Shown here: positions 11,616-21,140 of the stretch, in pieces | How positions within the stretch are numbered: the first letter of the stretch is position 1 | Layout of the letters: every line of letters starts with the position of its first letter | Source: Methanolobus sp. ZRKC5 | Lineage (GTDB): Archaea; Halobacteriota; Methanosarcinia; Methanosarcinales; Methanosarcinaceae | NCBI RefSeq assembly: GCF_038446525.1 | Contig: NZ_CP151792.1 | Coordinates: 1,488,001-1,552,000, forward strand | Reading direction: 5' to 3' | Length of the DNA: 64,000 bases | Position numbers and translations under genes: made by a program | Notes under the pieces: generated by a model | Databases searched by the model: none | Seen by the model: only the letters and a program-made list of their open reading frames with translations | Told to the model about the DNA's origin: nothing

Positions 11616-13073
11616 TTATGCCCTTAGTTCTTCATGATCAGATAATTTATGCTGGGACTCTGCTTGTATTTCAGTCTCCAGCAATTTCCCCACGTAAACT
11701 CTTGCCCACACAAAAATGAACAACGAACCTAGGATGTTACCTACGACCATGCCCCACCAAACACCTATAAGCCCCATATTCAGATTAAAAGCGAAAAACA
11801 AAGCGAACACTGGTACGAATATGACAGCACGCACAATTGTTGCAACAAGCGCATAAAGTCCTTTGCCAACTCCCTGAAAAAGAGACGAAGAGAGCATACC
11901 AAGAGATACTGTGGGATAGAATATGCAAATAATCCTCAGAAATATAATAAGGTCATCTGTGATATGAGAAGCGCTTTCTGAAAGAGTGAATGCGTAAGCT
12001 ATCTGAGGAGCCAGTATGAATGTAAAAAAAGCAATGACTGTTTCTACAAGAAGACCGATCTTCATTGAATATATATGAGCGAAGGAGACTTTGTCATATG
12101 AACCTTCACCGTATGAAAAACCAGTCATCGTTACAACTGCTGTTGAAATTCCAATGAGTGGAGCAATAGCTATGGTTGCAACACGCCATCCAACAGTGTA
12201 AACAGCTACTCCATCGGTATTACTGGCAGCTATTATGATGACATTCATTACAAGCATCATAAGTGCCATAGATGCCTGTTGTACAGTGGCAGGAATGCCA
12301 ACCTTGGATATGTCCCTGAGAATTCCCCGCTCAAAACTGAAATCCTTGAAATCAAAGGATAAATAAGTATCTTTTTTGAAGAACAACCAGCTGGACATCA
12401 GAACTGCAGTCACTCCCATTGATATCACTGTGGCCCATGCAGCACCCGCAACACCCATCTTGAACTGATAGATGAAAATCGGGTCAAGTACTATATTCAG
12501 AATGGAACCAAATATCATTGCATTCATAGCTCGTTTGGTGTCACCTTCACTGCGAAGTATCGCATTTGCAACATTGGTAAAGAACAGGAGGATACTGCCT
12601 CCAAAGATAATACGACCATAAGATGTCGCCATTGCAGTTGTCTTTCCGGCACCTATCATAGCAAATATCGGCTCTGCAAATGTGAAGAGTGTTATAGTGA
12701 AAACAGCAGACATCAAAACCATCAGGATCATCGTATGAACTGCAACATTGTCCGCACCTATTTTATCCCTTGAACCAAGCCGTCGGGATATTGCTGAACC
12801 GGCACCAACCCCAAGGCCGTTTGACAATGCAATGATAATAAAGAAGAATGGAAATACAAAACCCACTGCTGCAAGAGCATCCGAACCCAAGCCGGAAACC
12901 CAGAAAGTATCTACAAGATTGTACAATGTCTGGATGGACATACCAAGCATCATTGGTAATGCTAATTTAATTATAGCCTTTTTCGGGTCACCCAACATGG
13001 CTTTCATTCCGGAAGTTGCATTTGGAGTCTCAAATGCAGGTCCCTCATTTTCATTATTTGTAGTATTATTCAT
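11616..13073 (-). CDS. MATE-family multidrug/Na+ antiporter
   Basis: The 485-residue protein has about 12 hydrophobic segments in two similar halves and the MATE opening ALPMMLGMSIQTLYNLVDTFWVSGLG. Such carriers export drugs or toxic compounds in exchange for Na+ or H+. The start overlaps the last 8 bases of the MarR gene, so the regulator and pump are one operon. A soluble N-terminus of about 30 residues precedes the first segment. The substrate cannot be predicted. Confidence 0.92.
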   Translation of the reverse strand: MNNTTNNENEGPAFETPNATSGMKAMLGDPKKAIIKLALPMMLGMSIQTLYNLVDTFWVSGLGSDALAAVGFVFPFFFIIIALSNGLGVGAGSAISRRLGSRDKIGADNVAVHTMILMVLMSAVFTITLFTFAEPIFAMIGAGKTTAMATSYGRIIFGGSILLFFTNVANAILRSEGDTKRAMNAMIFGSILNIVLDPIFIYQFKMGVAGAAWATVISMGVTAVLMSSWLFFKKDTYLSFDFKDFSFERGILRDISKVGIPATVQQASMALMMLVMNVIIIAASNTDGVAVYTVGWRVATIAIAPLIGISTAVVTMTGFSYGEGSYDKVSFAHIYSMKIGLLVETVIAFFTFILAPQIAYAFTLSESASHITDDLIIFLRIICIFYPTVSLGMLSSSLFQGVGKGLYALVATIVRAVIFVPVFALFFAFNLNMGLIGVWWGMVVGNILGSLFIFVWARVYVGKLLETEIQAESQHKLSDHEELRA

Positions 13074-13563
13074 TTGAAGCCTTCTTCATTTCGTTTTCAG
13101 ATGCTATGTTTTTGGCAGCTTTTTCCATCATGGAAATAAACATAGCCTTTTCTTCAGTGCTAAAGCCATGCAAGAGTACATCATTGAGCTTTGAGCTTAT
13201 ATCGATCAGCACAGGCTTCATTTCGCGCCCTTTATCAGTAAGGTAGACACAGTAGGCACGTTTATCGCAAGGGTCCCTTTTCCTGATAACATAGCCCATT
13301 TCTTCGAGTTTGTTAACAGAGCGGGTGATGGTTGCACGATCATATTTCAATGAACTGGCAAGTGATTCCTGACTCACTCCTTCATGATACATTAAAAGCT
13401 TAAAAAAAGGGAACTGTCCACTTCCAATGCCATATGGTTCCAGCTCTTTTGAAAGATATATATTGATCGACCTGAAAAGGTGAGATATATCCCTACCTAT
13501 GGATTCATGTTTTTTAATGCTACAAAGGTTTTCATGTTTAACGGGATGTGTCAGAACTACCAC
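13066..13563 (-). CDS. MarR-family transcriptional regulator
   Basis: This 165-residue winged-helix protein has the MarR layout: a dimerisation helix, the HTH (QESLASSLKYDRATITRSVNKLEEMGYV), and the wing (KRDPCDKRAYCVYLTDKGREM). The first usable start is a GTG at 13563; no ATG precedes the conserved part. An AT-rich TATA-like stretch lies at about 13595-13608, and between it and the start is a cluster of GCAAC/TTGC half-sites (about 13568-13588) that could be its operator. It probably represses itself and the MATE pump. Confidence 0.85.
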   Translation of the reverse strand: MVVLTHPVKHENLCSIKKHESIGRDISHLFRSINIYLSKELEPYGIGSGQFPFFKLLMYHEGVSQESLASSLKYDRATITRSVNKLEEMGYVIRKRDPCDKRAYCVYLTDKGREMKPVLIDISSKLNDVLLHGFSTEEKAMFISMMEKAAKNIASENEMKKASNE

Positions 13564-13644: not shown

Positions 13645-14559
13645 TCAGTCTATAAAAAGTTCAACACCCATAAGTTCAAGGAAGATCTCTTCGAGGGAAG
13701 GTACAATAGTTCGCATCTCCACTATGTCCCCAGCTCTGGATGCAACCCATTTGGTAGTCTGGTTAACCACATCAATGTCACTGGTTGTAACGACATAGTT
13801 ATCGTCCACTATCTTGGTTTCGGAGATGGAGTACTCTTCAATACCGTCCACTTTGAACTCAAGACGATACTGTATCTTGCCATATTTCTTTCGTATTTCC
13901 TCAGCAGTACCCAATGTTACCAGCTTTCCTGCCTTGAGAATAAGTATCCTGTCACAGAGACTTTCAACCTGGAAGAGATTGTGAGCACTGAATATGATGG
14001 TTTTCCCGGATTTTTTCAGTGAGCGTACGTAATCAGTGATATAACGGGAAGTCATTGGGTCTAAGCCTGATGCCGGTTCATCGTATATCAGGATGTCAGG
14101 GTCATTGATAAGAGAACGAGCTATGGCAACTTTACGCTTCATTCCTTTTGAAAGATCACCTATCTTTTTACCGTCAGCATTGAGAGAAAGATCAAAAAGA
14201 AGTTCACGTATCCTTTTCTTTGCACGGTCCTTTGGAATGCAGTATAACTCTGAAAAGAAGAGAAGATAATCCTCTACACTCATACCCTCGTAGAGAGGAG
14301 ACTCTTCTGGAAGAAAACCAAGGAATGATTTTATCTCAACAGCATCCTTTGAGATATCCAGACCTTTCATATAAATACTGCCGGTACTTGGCCTGACAAG
14401 ACTGCTGAGCATTTTTAACGTTGTGGTTTTACCAGCACCGTTTGGACCAACTATTCCAAATATCTGCCCTTTGCTCACTGAGAAAGAAAGGTCATCAACA
14501 GCAACAAAATCGCCGTATTCCTTCCTGAGTCCATTAACTTCGATTACACCAGGTTCCAC
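13645..14559 (-). CDS. ABC transporter ATP-binding protein
   Basis: The 304-residue protein has Walker A (GPNGAGKTT), the signature LSKGMKRKVAIARSL, Walker B (ILIYDEPASGLDP) and the switch histidine (FSAHN). The C-terminal 80 residues are typical of ABC-2 export ATPases. The frame is open to 14628, but the GTG at 14559 gives the family N-terminus (VEPGVIEVNGLRKEYG). It probably powers the two permeases encoded divergently at 15579-18496, with only the MscS gene in between. The substrate is unknown. Confidence 0.92.
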   Translation of the reverse strand: MEPGVIEVNGLRKEYGDFVAVDDLSFSVSKGQIFGIVGPNGAGKTTTLKMLSSLVRPSTGSIYMKGLDISKDAVEIKSFLGFLPEESPLYEGMSVEDYLLFFSELYCIPKDRAKKRIRELLFDLSLNADGKKIGDLSKGMKRKVAIARSLINDPDILIYDEPASGLDPMTSRYITDYVRSLKKSGKTIIFSAHNLFQVESLCDRILILKAGKLVTLGTAEEIRKKYGKIQYRLEFKVDGIEEYSISETKIVDDNYVVTTSDIDVVNQTTKWVASRAGDIVEMRTIVPSLEEIFLELMGVELFID

Positions 14560-14580
14560 AAAAAGAATATATACTTCACT

Positions 14581-14590
14581 ATATATAAAC
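14581..14590 (-). promoter_or_regulatory. TATA box of the ABC ATPase gene, leaderless start
   Basis: On the reverse strand the sequence reads GTTTATATAT, centred about 26 bases before the GTG at 14559. That spacing would place transcription initiation at the start codon itself, so the mRNA would be leaderless; no Shine-Dalgarno sequence precedes this GTG. Confidence 0.55.
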
Positions 14591-14645
14591 AATGTTATAA
14601 AATAAGGAAAAGCATAGTTGCAGATCAACTATGCCTGAAGACAGT

Positions 14646-15455
14646 TTAATTCTTGTACATATGTACATCCAGCTGTGGGAAGGGAATCTCAATCTCTTCC
14701 TTGCCAAACGCCGCATGTATAGCTATTGTCAGGTCATTTTTCACAGCCCAGAAATCAGGGGTATTGACCCAGGCACGAAGCTGTAGATTTACAGATGAAT
14801 CTGCCAGTTCGGCGGTAACAACTGCTGCTACAGGGTCAGCAAGCACACGGGAATCCTGTTTGATGACATCCAGAGCGATCTGTACAGCTTTTGGAATGTC
14901 CGTAGTGTAACCCACACCAACATCAACTGAAACTCTGCGTGTAGGCATTCGGGTCGCATTTACAATAGGACTGCCCCATACAAGTTTGTTAGGCAATGTG
15001 ATAAACTGGTTATCGGGAGTAAGGAGTTCTGTCGCCATGATACCAACTGCATGAACTGTACCGGAAAGACCATCCACAGTTACATACTCTCCTTTGTCAA
15101 GAGGTCTCAGGGATGCTATCCACACACCTGCAGCCATATTGTTAAGTGAATCCTGCATACCAAAGCCAAGCACCAGTCCAATAACTGCTGAAAGACCTAC
15201 GACCACAGAGCTTGTATCGATTCCAAGGGTGCTCACAACTGCAAGCAATACACCCACATAGAGCAACGCACGCAGGAAACGAACGAGAAATTCAGTTACA
15301 AGCTCAGGAAGTTTAGTCTTTTTCAGGCCTTTACTAAACATACCGGAAAGAATTCCGGCAACAAGAAGACCTGCAATCAGAATCACCAGTGCAAATACTA
15401 TGTTTGCTATCGTTATCTCTGTATAAGGTATAGTTTGAGCTAAAATGTCTACCAA
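14646..15455 (-). CDS. MscS-family mechanosensitive channel
   Basis: After the TTG start (good GGAG Shine-Dalgarno 7 bases before it) come 269 residues. Three N-terminal membrane helices lead to the pore helix GLSAVIGLVLGFGMQDSLNNMAAGVWI, followed by the beta domain (DKGEYVTVDGLSGTVHAVGIMATELLTPDNQFITLPN) and the alpha/beta vestibule. The channel relieves osmotic pressure by opening under membrane tension. An ATG at 15539 gives a longer frame, but it reads through the promoter region and lacks family similarity. Confidence 0.9.
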   Translation of the reverse strand: MVDILAQTIPYTEITIANIVFALVILIAGLLVAGILSGMFSKGLKKTKLPELVTEFLVRFLRALLYVGVLLAVVSTLGIDTSSVVVGLSAVIGLVLGFGMQDSLNNMAAGVWIASLRPLDKGEYVTVDGLSGTVHAVGIMATELLTPDNQFITLPNKLVWGSPIVNATRMPTRRVSVDVGVGYTTDIPKAVQIALDVIKQDSRVLADPVAAVVTAELADSSVNLQLRAWVNTPDFWAVKNDLTIAIHAAFGKEEIEIPFPQLDVHMYKN

Positions 15456-15578
15456 TCTACCACTCCTGTGTATTATTAGTAAATAATCATATAAAAGTAG
15501 ACAATTGCCTGCATATAACCCTTCGTAATTATATAGCAAGTGTAGAAATATATATTAATATAATAAGCGCGTAATAAA

Positions 15579-17399
15579 ATGATGATGCCTGCTTGGTTCA
15601 CTATTGCAAAATGGGAATTTTTTAGATCAAAACTTAAATTCGATGCACGATCCATGATCATGCTCATATTATCTTTGATACTGGTAATAATTGCCTCTTA
15701 TGCTGCATCCCAGACAGGGATGAGTATGAACCAGAAAATATATCTTGTAGCTATTTCACAGCCTGAAGTACAACCTGTTATCGAAACCGATCAGAGATTC
15801 GATCATATTCTTGTAGACAGATTCACTGCAGGTAGCTACTATGAATATGGTGCTGATATGGCCATCATAGGAAACAACGTATATCTGGGGGATACTCGTA
15901 AAGCAGCGGCTGCGGGCGATTCATTGGACAGTACTTTTAAAACATATCGCGAAGTGGTTCTAACCTCATATAATGATGTTAACAATAGCCACCCTGTATG
16001 GGTCACTGTCCATGATCTGGAAAGACCGCAGAACTTCCAGCTGGCAGGAGCTGAGGAAACTGTTGATGGCATTAAAAAAGGAGCCAACGGACCTGCGGAT
16101 CTTGAAGATGTACCCCGCACTGGTGCCACAAACGAGCAGGAAAGAAGTGGATCCGTAAGAACTGGCTCATCAACTATCTCCCCGGAAGATATCGCAGCTC
16201 TTGATGCCATGGAAGGGAAGACCTTCTTTGAAAGGCAGACAATATCCACGCCTTCCAACTTTTCACCACCCATACCATTCACGGCCATACTTTATGCATT
16301 CCTGTTCATATTCCCAATTTACTTCATTTCACAATTCTACTCCACCAGCCTGATGGATGAGCGTACAAACAAGAAGGGAGAACTTGTACTTGCTGCACCC
16401 TTGCGTGGCATAGATGTTGTGGTTGGGAAAACTATCCCCTATCTTTTCATCACAATGGCTATCCAGACAGCAATAACTCTATACATAATCGGCATACCGT
16501 CAACTTTTGCAGGTGTAGAGAGAGTATTGCTTGTACTTGCAGCCATATTCCCTGTAGTCCTTCTCTTCTTTGCACTTTCATTCTACAGTGCCATCCTTTC
16601 CAGAAGTTTTAAGGAACTAACTTTTGCAAGTGTATTCCTGTCGGTGATCATATCAGGATACCTGTTCTTCCCTGCAATGTTTGCAAATATCCATGCCATC
16701 AGTTCCATTTCCCCTATAACGCTCATAGTCAGGCTCATTGAGAACGAGGAAGTGCTGATAAACACATATCTTTTCTCAACCCTGCCATTCTACTTCGTAG
16801 CAATCTCAGTATATGCATTTGGAACCTTCATTTTCAGGGAAGAGGACCTGTTCACACAAAAATCCATCAGCGGAAAAATAGTTGACTGCTTCGAACTGTT
16901 CCTTTCATATCCGTATGGTTCTGTATTCCTGCTTAGCGTAATATTCATTCCTTTTGTCTATATGGCACAACTGATGCTCATAGTCATGCTTTTCAATTTG
17001 CCTGTGCCTTATTCGATAATAGCAATGATCCTGATGTCCGCAATGGCGGAAGAGCTTGTAAAGTCAATTGGTATCTACACACTTTTTAAAAGGAAGATAG
17101 CTGACATCACATTACGCAACGCAATAAAGTATTCCATATTATCAGGTGCAGGATTCTTCGTAGGGGAAAAAGCTGTTGCTGTCCTCACACTGGCACCAAT
17201 TGCAAGTTCAGCCTTCGGGTCAGTAATGACAATGGGCACTTTGCTATTGATACCATTGTTCCTGCATATCACAACAGTTCTCATCAGCTCACTGGTAATG
17301 TACAAAAAAGGACCACGATATTACGTGGTAGCCGTAGTACTTGCAACCCTTTTCCACAGTTTGTATAACATGATAATCCTAAGGGGGCTGTTCTTTTGA
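15579..17399 (+). CDS. ABC-2 permease fused to a PrsW-like intramembrane protease domain
   Basis: Residues 1-430 look like an ABC-2 export permease: one N-terminal helix, a large extracytoplasmic part, then a helix bundle with the MDERTNKKGELVLAAPLRGIDVVVGK segment. Residues 440-606 form a separate bundle with the PrsW motif order: EELVK (E491, E492), FFVGE (E530), H563 in PLFLHITT and H593 in FHSLYN. PrsW proteins are glutamic-type membrane proteases. A fused exporter and protease might process what it exports or cut a regulator. A TATATATT near 15549 suggests a leaderless start at the MMM cluster. The TTG of the next gene overlaps the stop. Confidence 0.8.
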   Translation: MMMPAWFTIAKWEFFRSKLKFDARSMIMLILSLILVIIASYAASQTGMSMNQKIYLVAISQPEVQPVIETDQRFDHILVDRFTAGSYYEYGADMAIIGNNVYLGDTRKAAAAGDSLDSTFKTYREVVLTSYNDVNNSHPVWVTVHDLERPQNFQLAGAEETVDGIKKGANGPADLEDVPRTGATNEQERSGSVRTGSSTISPEDIAALDAMEGKTFFERQTISTPSNFSPPIPFTAILYAFLFIFPIYFISQFYSTSLMDERTNKKGELVLAAPLRGIDVVVGKTIPYLFITMAIQTAITLYIIGIPSTFAGVERVLLVLAAIFPVVLLFFALSFYSAILSRSFKELTFASVFLSVIISGYLFFPAMFANIHAISSISPITLIVRLIENEEVLINTYLFSTLPFYFVAISVYAFGTFIFREEDLFTQKSISGKIVDCFELFLSYPYGSVFLLSVIFIPFVYMAQLMLIVMLFNLPVPYSIIAMILMSAMAEELVKSIGIYTLFKRKIADITLRNAIKYSILSGAGFFVGEKAVAVLTLAPIASSAFGSVMTMGTLLLIPLFLHITTVLISSLVMYKKGPRYYVVAVVLATLFHSLYNMIILRGLFF

Positions 17400-18496
17400 A
17401 TAAATTCGGAAATTCATGCAGCAAAGTGAAGACCATAGCTAAAAAGGAATTCAAAGAGCTCATGAGTGAAAAGACATTCATACTTGCCATTATAATCCAG
17501 CTTTTCATAGCATCGTTCGCAACCTTCCTGGTTATCGGACTTACTTCATTCTATGACCCAAGCACATTGGGAGATATGGAACTGGAAGGAACTTCCATTG
17601 CTGTGGTTGGAACCCAGGACAATGAGCTTTATAAGATATTACAGGAAAGCAATGTCAGGACATATCTTTATCACGACTTCCAGTTAGCATATACAGATTT
17701 CTATGACCATAAGTTAGATGCGATCATTGTGGCTCCATTGGGGACTTCTACTGGAACTGATCTGCTCAACGTAGATATATACCTGCCAAAATCAGAAATA
17801 AAGGCAACTGTTGTTTCCCTTCAGCTTAAGGAACCACTTGAGATGTACGAGCAGAGTGTGAGGGATGTAAGGACGCAGAGATTGCCCGGATATACACCTA
17901 TAGAATTCAACATAATAGAAAGAGGTATCAAAACATCTTCCACCTACTTTGAGTTCATTTACGTAGCACTCCTACCCTTGCTTGTATTCACTCCGGCATT
18001 CATATCAGGAGGACTGATAATTGATTTCATTACAGAGGAATACGAGCGCAAGACCATGGATATGCTCCTTGTGTCTCCGGCATCCATACTTGACATCATT
18101 AATGGAAAGGTGATACTGGCAATATTGATAGTTCCCCTGCAATCGTTTGTCTGGATGCTACTGCTGTCAATGAACAGGGTGTCGATACAAAATTCATTGC
18201 AGATATTACTACTTGTGACAGTTATCGCTGCTGTACTTGTACTGTCAAGTACTATAATCGCAGTCCTGTTCAGAGAAAGAGGAGTTGCACAGCTACTGTA
18301 CTCACTTATCCTCATCTTCCTGTTCATGGCCTCTTACCTGTTCACGAACTCCCCACTGAACTTGGTTACCCGTCTTTCTATAGAAAGCATAGGAGCACTG
18401 GAAAGCTGGACATGGATGGGGATCTATATCCTTGTGGCCATATTTCTGTATGCCTCAATGGTGATTGCAGTCAAGAAAGAAGCACATAACATTTAA
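17396..18496 (+). CDS. ABC-2 type permease
   Basis: The 366-residue protein has an N-terminal helix, an extracytoplasmic domain and five to six C-terminal helices, as in the NatB/ABC-2 family. The motif ITEEYERKTMDMLLVSPASILDIINGK is the cytoplasmic coupling segment of these permeases. The start is a TTG overlapping the stop of the permease-protease gene (TTGA). It probably pairs with that protein and the ATPase at 13645-14559 to form an exporter. Confidence 0.88.
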   Translation: MNKFGNSCSKVKTIAKKEFKELMSEKTFILAIIIQLFIASFATFLVIGLTSFYDPSTLGDMELEGTSIAVVGTQDNELYKILQESNVRTYLYHDFQLAYTDFYDHKLDAIIVAPLGTSTGTDLLNVDIYLPKSEIKATVVSLQLKEPLEMYEQSVRDVRTQRLPGYTPIEFNIIERGIKTSSTYFEFIYVALLPLLVFTPAFISGGLIIDFITEEYERKTMDMLLVSPASILDIINGKVILAILIVPLQSFVWMLLLSMNRVSIQNSLQILLLVTVIAAVLVLSSTIIAVLFRERGVAQLLYSLILIFLFMASYLFTNSPLNLVTRLSIESIGALESWTWMGIYILVAIFLYASMVIAVKKEAHNI

Positions 18497-18513: not shown

Positions 18514-20358
18514 ATGATAATAATGCCAACAAAAAAGCTCCTTTCAGCAATCATAATGTTGCTAATTCTTATTGCACCTGTAAGCGCTTATGGAATCAGG
18601 GAGGAGAACATATGGATTTTCCAGGGTTCCTACGACCTGGGAATTGCCGAAAGAGCATACCTGGAAGGCTTCACTATAAAAATACATGAGATCAACGTCG
18701 ATAATGAATCCTCAGCTACATTGTTGGTATACAGGAACTCCATTTTCAAAGAGGCTGTTCAGGTTGATAGTGAATTGAACAGCGAGCATATCTATAACGG
18801 TGAGCTCAAGATCAACGTACTTGCCATAAGCCAGGAGAAAGTCTCACTGGAAATATACAAACAAAAATCTGAACTTGTATGGGTCACTGACATTCCAAAG
18901 ACATCATTCAGAACAGGTGACACGCTAACAGGAGATAAATACAAGATCATCTTTGCTGATATCAATGAAGATGGGGCAGCAATATCAGGAGAGTATGATG
19001 GCAACAAGTTTGAAGGAACTTATAAAACAGGAGACCATCAGAAATTCTCTGATGAGTTCATGATCAATGTAGTATATCTGAAAAAGGATACAAAAGAAGT
19101 GTTTATAGAGACACTAAAACCGGGAGCTCCTGATATAAAATTAGATTCTGCAGATGTAAAAGATAGCTATGAACCAGATGAGTACGTGGAATATGAACTT
19201 CTGGTCACAAACAACGGGACAATACCATTGCATGGGATGATACTGACTACGGAATGTGATGACGGATACGTAGAAGAAGCAACTCAGCAACATTCGATAC
19301 TCGAAGCCGGGAAACAAAAAAAATTCATCATCAAGATTAGACCTGAAAGTGAACCCGTAGGTAAGAACATAAGTATAATTTCAAAAGTTCAGGGCTATGA
19401 TTACAGAGGAAATGAATATAGAAACGAAATCTCGACAGAAGTGAACGTCAAACCGTACATATCCATCGAAAAAGAGATAATTACAAGGGAAAAAGCATCT
19501 GAAAATCCTGAATTTGGAACCGAACAGTACTTCCAGATAATTATTACTCTTGAGAATAAGGCAAACTTCCAGACAGCTGTCACAGTCACAGATGAATTGC
19601 CTGCATCTTTTATTCCCAATGATATAGAAACTACTGAATGGGCAGTATTGCTTGATGCCAGAAGCACAAAGACAATAGAATACTTTGTATCACCTACAGA
19701 ACCTGGGGATTTCATATTCATGCCTGCAACAGTGATATGGAAAGATGGAGGGGAAACCTACACACTGGACTCTGAGAAAACTGATACGCTCTTTCACGTA
19801 AGTGGCTCGAAGGTTATTGTAGAAAAAGAACTCAGTTCCAGTTATATGCTTGTGGGAGAGGAAATAAATGTCACTATTATAGTAATTAATGAAGGTGATA
19901 ACGCTTTTAAAGTATCTTACAAGGAAAGCATTCCTGATGAACTCACTTTCATCGAAGGAGATTACAAGTGGGCTGGAACACTGACAGCAGGAGAGACCAG
20001 GAAGTTCACTTACATTGTACGGGCGGAAAGAGCAGGAGAATACTACCTGCCTATGACCGAACTGAGTACTACAGACGAAGAGGGGAAAAAAGAAAACACT
20101 GTTTCAGCTCAACCTTTCCTTTACATTGATGATGCTCTTGTGGAAGATGAAATCTACATTGAACAAAGCAGCTATAATGAGCCATATGATAGCTCCTTTG
20201 AAAATAGTGATGAGACTGCAACAACAGAGCCTGAGATCACAAGGGTTGAAGCTGCAGGTTTTTTAGCATCTTCATTTGTCAGCCTTTTCCTCTTAATTGG
20301 TGTTGTACCTGGCTTCATATATTTATATATAATCAGAGAATATAAACAAACGAAATAA
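18514..20358 (+). CDS. Membrane-anchored surface protein with DUF11-like repeats
   Basis: The 614-residue product has a signal peptide (LLSAIIMLLILIAPVSA), several beta-sandwich repeats with the phrasing of archaeal S-layer/DUF11 domains (VTNNGTIPLHGM, VTDELPASF, VINEGDNAFKVSYKESIPDELTF), and one C-terminal helix (residues 588-608) followed by a short basic tail. It should stand on the outer face of the membrane. It lies 17 bases after the permease gene, so it may belong to the transporter operon. The start may be the first or second ATG (18514 or 18523); no Shine-Dalgarno is evident. Confidence 0.75.
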   Translation: MIIMPTKKLLSAIIMLLILIAPVSAYGIREENIWIFQGSYDLGIAERAYLEGFTIKIHEINVDNESSATLLVYRNSIFKEAVQVDSELNSEHIYNGELKINVLAISQEKVSLEIYKQKSELVWVTDIPKTSFRTGDTLTGDKYKIIFADINEDGAAISGEYDGNKFEGTYKTGDHQKFSDEFMINVVYLKKDTKEVFIETLKPGAPDIKLDSADVKDSYEPDEYVEYELLVTNNGTIPLHGMILTTECDDGYVEEATQQHSILEAGKQKKFIIKIRPESEPVGKNISIISKVQGYDYRGNEYRNEISTEVNVKPYISIEKEIITREKASENPEFGTEQYFQIIITLENKANFQTAVTVTDELPASFIPNDIETTEWAVLLDARSTKTIEYFVSPTEPGDFIFMPATVIWKDGGETYTLDSEKTDTLFHVSGSKVIVEKELSSSYMLVGEEINVTIIVINEGDNAFKVSYKESIPDELTFIEGDYKWAGTLTAGETRKFTYIVRAERAGEYYLPMTELSTTDEEGKKENTVSAQPFLYIDDALVEDEIYIEQSSYNEPYDSSFENSDETATTEPEITRVEAAGFLASSFVSLFLLIGVVPGFIYLYIIREYKQTK

Positions 20359-20378: not shown

Positions 20379-20795
20379 ATGGGAATTCTAGCTTTTGTAG
20401 GATCAGGGATGCTTTTTGCATTATTTGCCGTGCTAGTACTTTTTGTTCTGATCAATATGTCTTCCAGACTTGCACTCATTATTCTGTTCATTACACCCCT
20501 TTTTTTTATGCTCCTAATACCAGGAACTTCAATAGCTTTCCTTTCTTACAGACAGATGCTCCTTGCAAACGGACTTGTACCCATAAACAATTTCCACATA
20601 TTGCTAATGCTCTGGTCCACCCTTATAGGAATAATACTGTACACTGAGTTTTTGACATGGTATCTTGGAAAGGGTGCAAAGATGAAGAAAGGAAGTACAG
20701 GCAATAGTCAAAATATGGAAACTTTTGGAAACGTACTACAAAATACATCTTCTGCAATCGAAAAAGTAAAAGATAACGTTCTGAAACGTAATTAA
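20379..20795 (+). CDS. Small membrane protein of unknown function
   Basis: A 138-residue protein with three hydrophobic helices in the first 95 residues and a polar C-terminal tail. An AGGAG Shine-Dalgarno precedes the ATG. I do not recognise a family. It follows the surface-protein gene by 20 bases and precedes a TM2-like gene by 12, so it is part of the same run of envelope genes. Confidence 0.7.
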   Translation: MGILAFVGSGMLFALFAVLVLFVLINMSSRLALIILFITPLFFMLLIPGTSIAFLSYRQMLLANGLVPINNFHILLMLWSTLIGIILYTEFLTWYLGKGAKMKKGSTGNSQNMETFGNVLQNTSSAIEKVKDNVLKRN

Positions 20796-20807: not shown

Positions 20808-21140
20808 TTGTTATGCAAAGGGAACTATACCCTATTACATAGTTATGGGGGAATAAGTCTGACAGATGAAGAAGAGAAGTATGTTATAAATGTAGAGGAA
20901 GACGAAGAACATAAACCAATGCCATGGAGATCCGCACTCTATTCCCTGGTATTCCCTGGACTTGGGCAGATGTACAACGGAGATTTTGCCAGAGGTTCTT
21001 ACTATTTTGTAATTGCGTTTATACTGATTGTTGCATCATATCTTGTAATACCTATATTGATACTGATCGTTTTCTGGCTGTACAACATATATCAGGCTTT
21101 TAGTTTTGCCAGAAATTATGAAGCTAATGAACAGGGCTGA
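20808..21140 (+). CDS. TM2-like small membrane protein
   Basis: An acidic N-terminus of about 35 residues is followed by two membrane helices with a TM2-like pattern: PWRSALYSLVFPGLGQMYNGDFARG, then a hydrophobic stretch and FWLYNIYQAFSFAR. The G-x-G-Q-x-Y-x-G core is typical of TM2 proteins, whose role is unclear. The start is uncertain: a TTG at 20808 opens the frame, and the conserved region begins near residue 38. Confidence 0.65.
   Translation: MLCKGNYTLLHSYGGISLTDEEEKYVINVEEDEEHKPMPWRSALYSLVFPGLGQMYNGDFARGSYYFVIAFILIVASYLVIPILILIVFWLYNIYQAFSFARNYEANEQG

Follow-up and report, generated by a model that had tools for sequence, protein, structure and literature searches.

An ABC-2 permease fused to a PrsW-type intramembrane protease domain in Methanolobus and across the phylum Halobacteriota

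Can a single archaeal polypeptide combine an export permease with a glutamic intramembrane protease, and what would such a protein do? The question is raised by a protein of 606 amino acids encoded by the ORF 15579-17399 (+) in the window studied here, a stretch of 64,000 nucleotides from the single-contig 3.05-Mb genome of Methanolobus sp. ZRKC5. A sequence-only reading had described this protein as a permease-PrsW fusion which might both export and cleave, or whose protease might sense the state of the transporter. The hydropathy of the protein revealed 6 + 5 TM segments. Six of them belong to the permease half (residues 1-430; 15579..16868, +), in which TM1 is followed by a large extracytoplasmic domain (about residues 44-231) and then by the other five, and the remaining five to the PrsW half (residues 436-606; 16884..17399, +). 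The nearest named relatives of the fusion are found in Methanolobus species, with M. psychrotolerans showing 89% identity over the whole protein.

The protease assignment was explored with the PrsW profile PF13367, which matched residues 440-606, the region proposed by the sequence-only reading, with 26.1 bits (E 7.4e-6) against a curated cut-off of 23.5; a genome-wide profile search repeated the match over the cut-off at 26.2 bits. A lack of any PrsW profile match, which would have refuted the sequence-only reading, was thus not observed. The match was missing when the full 606-residue protein was scanned with Pfam, most likely because the speed filter of HMMER drops it, and full-length Pfam scans missed the protease in 28 of 31 family members. 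Routine annotation would therefore miss it too, and a protease domain can thus hide in proteins named only as permeases. The RefSeq record of a Haladaptatus ortholog is named only 'ABC transporter permease subunit', and stand-alone bacterial PrsW proteins are labelled PrsW in database records. The PrsW score is borderline in single sequences: when 31 relatives were trimmed to the domain, 14 gave a PrsW match at E<=0.1, the best at 3.3e-9, and the domain of the window's fusion lost its match once the cut was placed four residues earlier. Such near-threshold scores would suit an accidental resemblance of motifs, the C-terminal helices being merely extra helices of the permease, and the case therefore rests on family-level tests. 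In these, hhalign aligned the profile of 31 fused domains with that of 8 stand-alone archaeal PrsW proteins (E 1.4e-6), and each of the four motifs fell into register, while the permease-half profile, used as a negative control against the stand-alone PrsW profile, reached only 0.7% probability. Together with the motif invariance described below, these results make an accidental resemblance very improbable, and we hold the protein to be almost certainly a real permease-PrsW fusion.

The four motifs (E491E492xxK495, F526xxxE530, H563 and H593xxxN597) were found at the residues named beforehand, with E491/E492 in AEELVK, E530 in FFVGEK, and H593 in HSLYN. In 93 distinct fusions, whose mean pairwise distance is about 0.6, E491, E492, K495, E530, H563 and H593 are conserved in 93/93, and H563 is in register with the corresponding histidine of stand-alone PrsW. 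F526 is kept in 92 of the 93 (Tyr in one), and residue 597 is N in 87 and D in 6. The whole 606-residue protein has 18 strictly invariant columns, and eight of these positions lie in the protease (E491, E492, K495, E530, K531, P559, H563 and H593). The fusion has its four motifs and its sequence family in common with stand-alone PrsW (PF13367, MEROPS M82; B. subtilis YpdC/PrsW and Haloferax HVO_0408), which is not fused to a transporter. In B. subtilis PrsW/YpdC the motifs read E75E76xxK79, F110xxxE114, H138 and H175xxxD/N179, and function needs E75/E76 and H175 (PMC12943098); the spacing from the second to the third Glu is 38 in both this protein and the fusion. The CPBP, or type II CAAX, proteases carry EExxxR as motif 1 and HxxxN as motif 4 (PMC4602095). 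No CPBP Pfam match was obtained in the fusions, and EExxxR is absent, with EExxK of the PrsW type in its place.

By sequence comparison, the fused PrsW domains form a subtype. The invariant Lys after the motif-2 Glu is a feature of the fusions as against stand-alone PrsW, whereas the fusions are without the Arg before the motif-3 His (R184) and the DG motif (D142, G143), which are invariant in the 8 aligned stand-alone archaeal PrsW proteins, the set in which this pattern was seen, and which are no published defining feature of PrsW.

The model of the protease domain (pLDDT 84.6, pTM 0.79) has four helices of high confidence in which the four motifs lie. A positive-inside topology derived from hydropathy suggests that the EExxK helix runs from outside to inside, with the motif residues in the middle of the membrane. 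This predicted position and the untouched active site favour an active intramembrane protease, and judged from its residues the protease half is quite probably catalytically active. The precedent of APH-1 suggests that invariant residues alone are no proof of catalysis: APH-1 keeps the motif residues yet is not the protease of gamma-secretase. APH-1 belongs by homology to the same superfamily as PrsW (PMC6588880), and the PrsW half could likewise have been retained for its shape, as a scaffold or a gating module that serves the permease without catalysis. In this superfamily the APH-1-like proteins have a role in assembly, and the fused domain is without the Arg and DG residues of stand-alone PrsW. 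In the Foldseek search of the domain against PDB, which returned no significant match and did not find Rce1, APH-1 chains had the highest TM-scores among the matches listed (0.41-0.43), though these were not significant (0.43 at E 4.5). Scaffolds, however, often lose one of the catalytic-type positions, whereas all of them are intact in the fusions, and in APH-1 itself EE is replaced by QE (PMC6588880). A scaffolding role appears unlikely.

The permease half and the following gene were also found to be as the sequence-only reading had proposed. In the window's fusion, ABC2_membrane_3 (residues 218-384) gives a weak match of 22 bits against a cut-off of 31.6, whereas 30 of 31 relatives of the fusion match this family, the best with E 1.4e-19. 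The gene downstream, with the ORF 17396-18496 (+), encodes a second ABC-2 permease of 366 residues (PERM2; ABC2_membrane_3, 59.3 bits), and its TTG start overlaps the TGA stop of the fusion. The profiles of the permease half and of PERM2 aligned by hhalign at E 3.3e-7, and hydropathy gives PERM2 a matching large extracytoplasmic loop (residues 48-190). The full-length fusion model is of moderate quality (pLDDT 67, pTM 0.60). With E 0.019 and prob 1.00, a mycobacterial ABC efflux pump headed its Foldseek matches in PDB; below it came transporters of unrelated kinds together with some ABC-2 exporters. The fold search on this model is suggestive of ABC-2 exporters. A PDB sequence search with either half of the fusion gave no matches.

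The genes around the fusion were compared in 49 loci with a length of at least 9 kb. In 49/49 of these, PERM2 is the direct neighbour of the fusion and shares its strand. A DrrA/GldA-like ABC ATPase, which is the probable motor of the exporter (13645..14628, - strand; ABC_tran 102.7 bits, DrrA1-3_C), is present in 47/49 and lies within 1.5 kb upstream of the fusion in 46/49; it is divergent from the fusion in most loci, as in the window, and co-directional in 9. The other neighbours are limited to one lineage. These are an MscS-type mechanosensitive channel between the ATPase and the fusion (14646..15539, -; Pfam MS_channel; 13/49 loci), a DUF11/BatD-like surface protein that begins with a signal-like segment and has one TM at its C-terminus (18514..20358, +; Pfam DUF11/BatD; 17/49 loci), and two small membrane proteins, one of 138 amino acids with no Pfam family in the scan (20379..20795, +) and one of 110 amino acids with a weak DUF5683 match (20808..21140, +), both recognised as lineage-specific by locus and ortholog comparison. 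The core is therefore made up of the ATPase, the permease-PrsW fusion and the second permease, and the MscS channel is probably a lineage-specific insertion outside it. This core resembles the two-permease ABC-2 exporters (NatB/ABC2_membrane_3, DrrAB and GldA-type), which likewise combine an ATPase with two permeases having large extracytoplasmic domains; the difference is that here one permease carries a protease.

The sequence-only reading had called for a survey of such fusions in Methanosarcinaceae. The fusion is indeed present in this family, but it is missing from several genera there and it is spread over the phylum. Matches were found in 55/120 genomes of the order Methanosarcinales, 76/238 of the class Methanosarcinia and 202/393 of the phylum Halobacteriota, where 82/136 genera are represented; among the well-assembled phylum genomes sampled the count is 191/321, or about 60%. 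In distant families, where the first matches were partial or weak, single frames of about 520-630 amino acids were found to span both halves. All 76 fusion-bearing genomes of the class have the second permease, for which four extra matches in the class are fragments, and the family genomes that have no fusion have no second permease either, apart from a single weak match in one of them. The unit is therefore kept or lost together. A search of a plasmid collection gave one match only, which is haloarchaeal. No PADLOC or PHROGs match linked the unit to defence or phage, and such an origin was rejected. An apparent ATPase-permease-protease triple fusion of 982 amino acids (L110) was also discarded, as its ORF is over-extended and covers an ATPase that is encoded in a different frame. 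In four genomes of one genus of the family (G504, G505, G508 and G509), matches of 50-70 amino acids to the last ~55 residues of PERM2 were seen at places other than the main gene, and several of these stretches contain an in-frame TGA.

The distances of the two halves correlate with r 0.97 over 4278 pairs, a high value which in part reflects no more than the history of the species. A FastTree analysis combined 48 fused domains with 13 PrsW domains from stand-alone archaeal and bacterial proteins, and in it the stand-alone domains all group together (support 0.994). One fast-evolving, long-branch fusion (L116) is placed beside them with support 0.863, the deep nodes being poorly supported. The tree and the co-divergence of the halves are consistent with a single old fusion event, which would be the simplest reading.

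What, then, would the attached protease do? ABC-2 exporters as a class handle lipids, drugs, ions, glycans and peptides. Our tentative best explanation, which we hold with less than even confidence, is an ABC exporter with two permeases, one of which bears the protease as a covalent part, and which would help to clear or export the cleavage products. The heteromeric exporter would consist of an ATPase dimer, the plain permease PERM2 and the permease with the C-terminal PrsW domain. The protease, active and placed beside the permease pore, would cut a transmembrane or hydrophobic peptide substrate, and the ATP-driven permease pair would extract or export the cleavage product or else feed the substrate to the protease. 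A coupling of cleavage to export or extraction is similarly possible but doubtful, and the bolder proposal of a phylum-wide archaeal machine for ATP-driven intramembrane proteolysis, in which the exporter pulls segments into the protease or products out of it, is rather unlikely. Since the neighbours vary between lineages, the substrate is probably encoded away from this locus and shared throughout the phylum. The DUF11/BatD-like protein may be a candidate substrate or partner, at most a lineage-specific substrate: a proline in the middle of its C-terminal TM, present in 17/17 orthologs, would be compatible with intramembrane cleavage. As a universal substrate it was ruled out, being beside the operon in only 17/49 loci. 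The same TM segment also has a near-invariant FLxSSF-type stretch.

Alternatively, the protease may act as a regulator outside transport, the exporter sensing either a ligand or an insult to the envelope and then switching PrsW to cut an anchored regulator, on the model of Bacillus, where PrsW cuts RsiW. Under membrane or peptide stress, the PrsW that has been characterised sets off a cascade of regulated proteolysis (PMC4602095, PMC12943098), and elsewhere PrsW is fused to the signalling domains PilZ, cyclic-nucleotide and FHA (PMC3482391, PMC12943098). Against this, a comparison of loci from the phylum showed neither a regulator nor an anchored anti-factor as a conserved neighbour of the gene. 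Moreover, archaea are not known to have sigma/anti-sigma pairs. A regulatory role is therefore regarded as improbable, though it deserves somewhat more weight than the scaffold, and the exporter with an attached protease is retained as the working explanation.

Intramembrane proteases have mostly been studied as free enzymes, with passive access of the substrate. That an untouched active site is kept in a fixed, old fusion to an ATP-driven exporter suggests a coupling of membrane-protein cutting to transport in some archaea. The ATP-driven machine considered above, if real, would be the first ABC transporter known to be coupled directly to intramembrane cleavage by an enzyme of the PrsW type. 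Some parts of this picture are already known, namely a permease-CPBP fusion and PrsW fusions with toxins and PilZ. The former, a bacterial counterpart, is the NCBIfam model NF041647 (ABC_perm_CPBP), which, judged by its name and its length of 636 positions, combines an ABC-2 permease with a protease of the same superfamily, and PERM2 aligns with its first 301 positions at E 6.9e-11. Its protease, however, is CPBP and not PrsW; the fusion gives no match to the model, and PERM2 scores 41.6-41.9 bits against a cut-off of 435. The PrsW fusions in polymorphic toxins and signalling proteins (PMC3482391, PMC12943098) likewise hold PrsW within a larger protein; a combined role in export and cleavage was proposed for the toxin fusions (PMC3482391), and PrsW-PilZ fusions have been published (PMC12943098). 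In contrast, the fusion studied here has no toxin or signalling domain, and its partner is an ABC-2 permease with an ATPase and a second permease. No description of a permease-PrsW fusion was found in the literature searched, which did not cover the 2011 paper defining the superfamily. The surprising parts are the phylum-wide spread and the intact active site. The unit is widespread in tractable haloarchaea and is therefore testable by gene deletion.

A few further observations were made in the surroundings of the locus. The family of the small membrane protein at 20379-20795 has a conserved NGxVPINN(F/Y)H motif and travels with the DUF11-like gene. At 11616-13563, beside the ATPase, a MATE-type efflux gene and a MarR-like regulator (ORFs of 485 and ~165 amino acids), identified by eye, are present in most Methanolobus loci with their order kept. 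The genome that holds the window also has a second PrsW, a stand-alone protein of the ordinary type with 290 amino acids and 88 bits (L095 1258-2130; G000:C1:1305603-1306130), and a histidine-kinase-like ORF lies downstream of it on the other strand.
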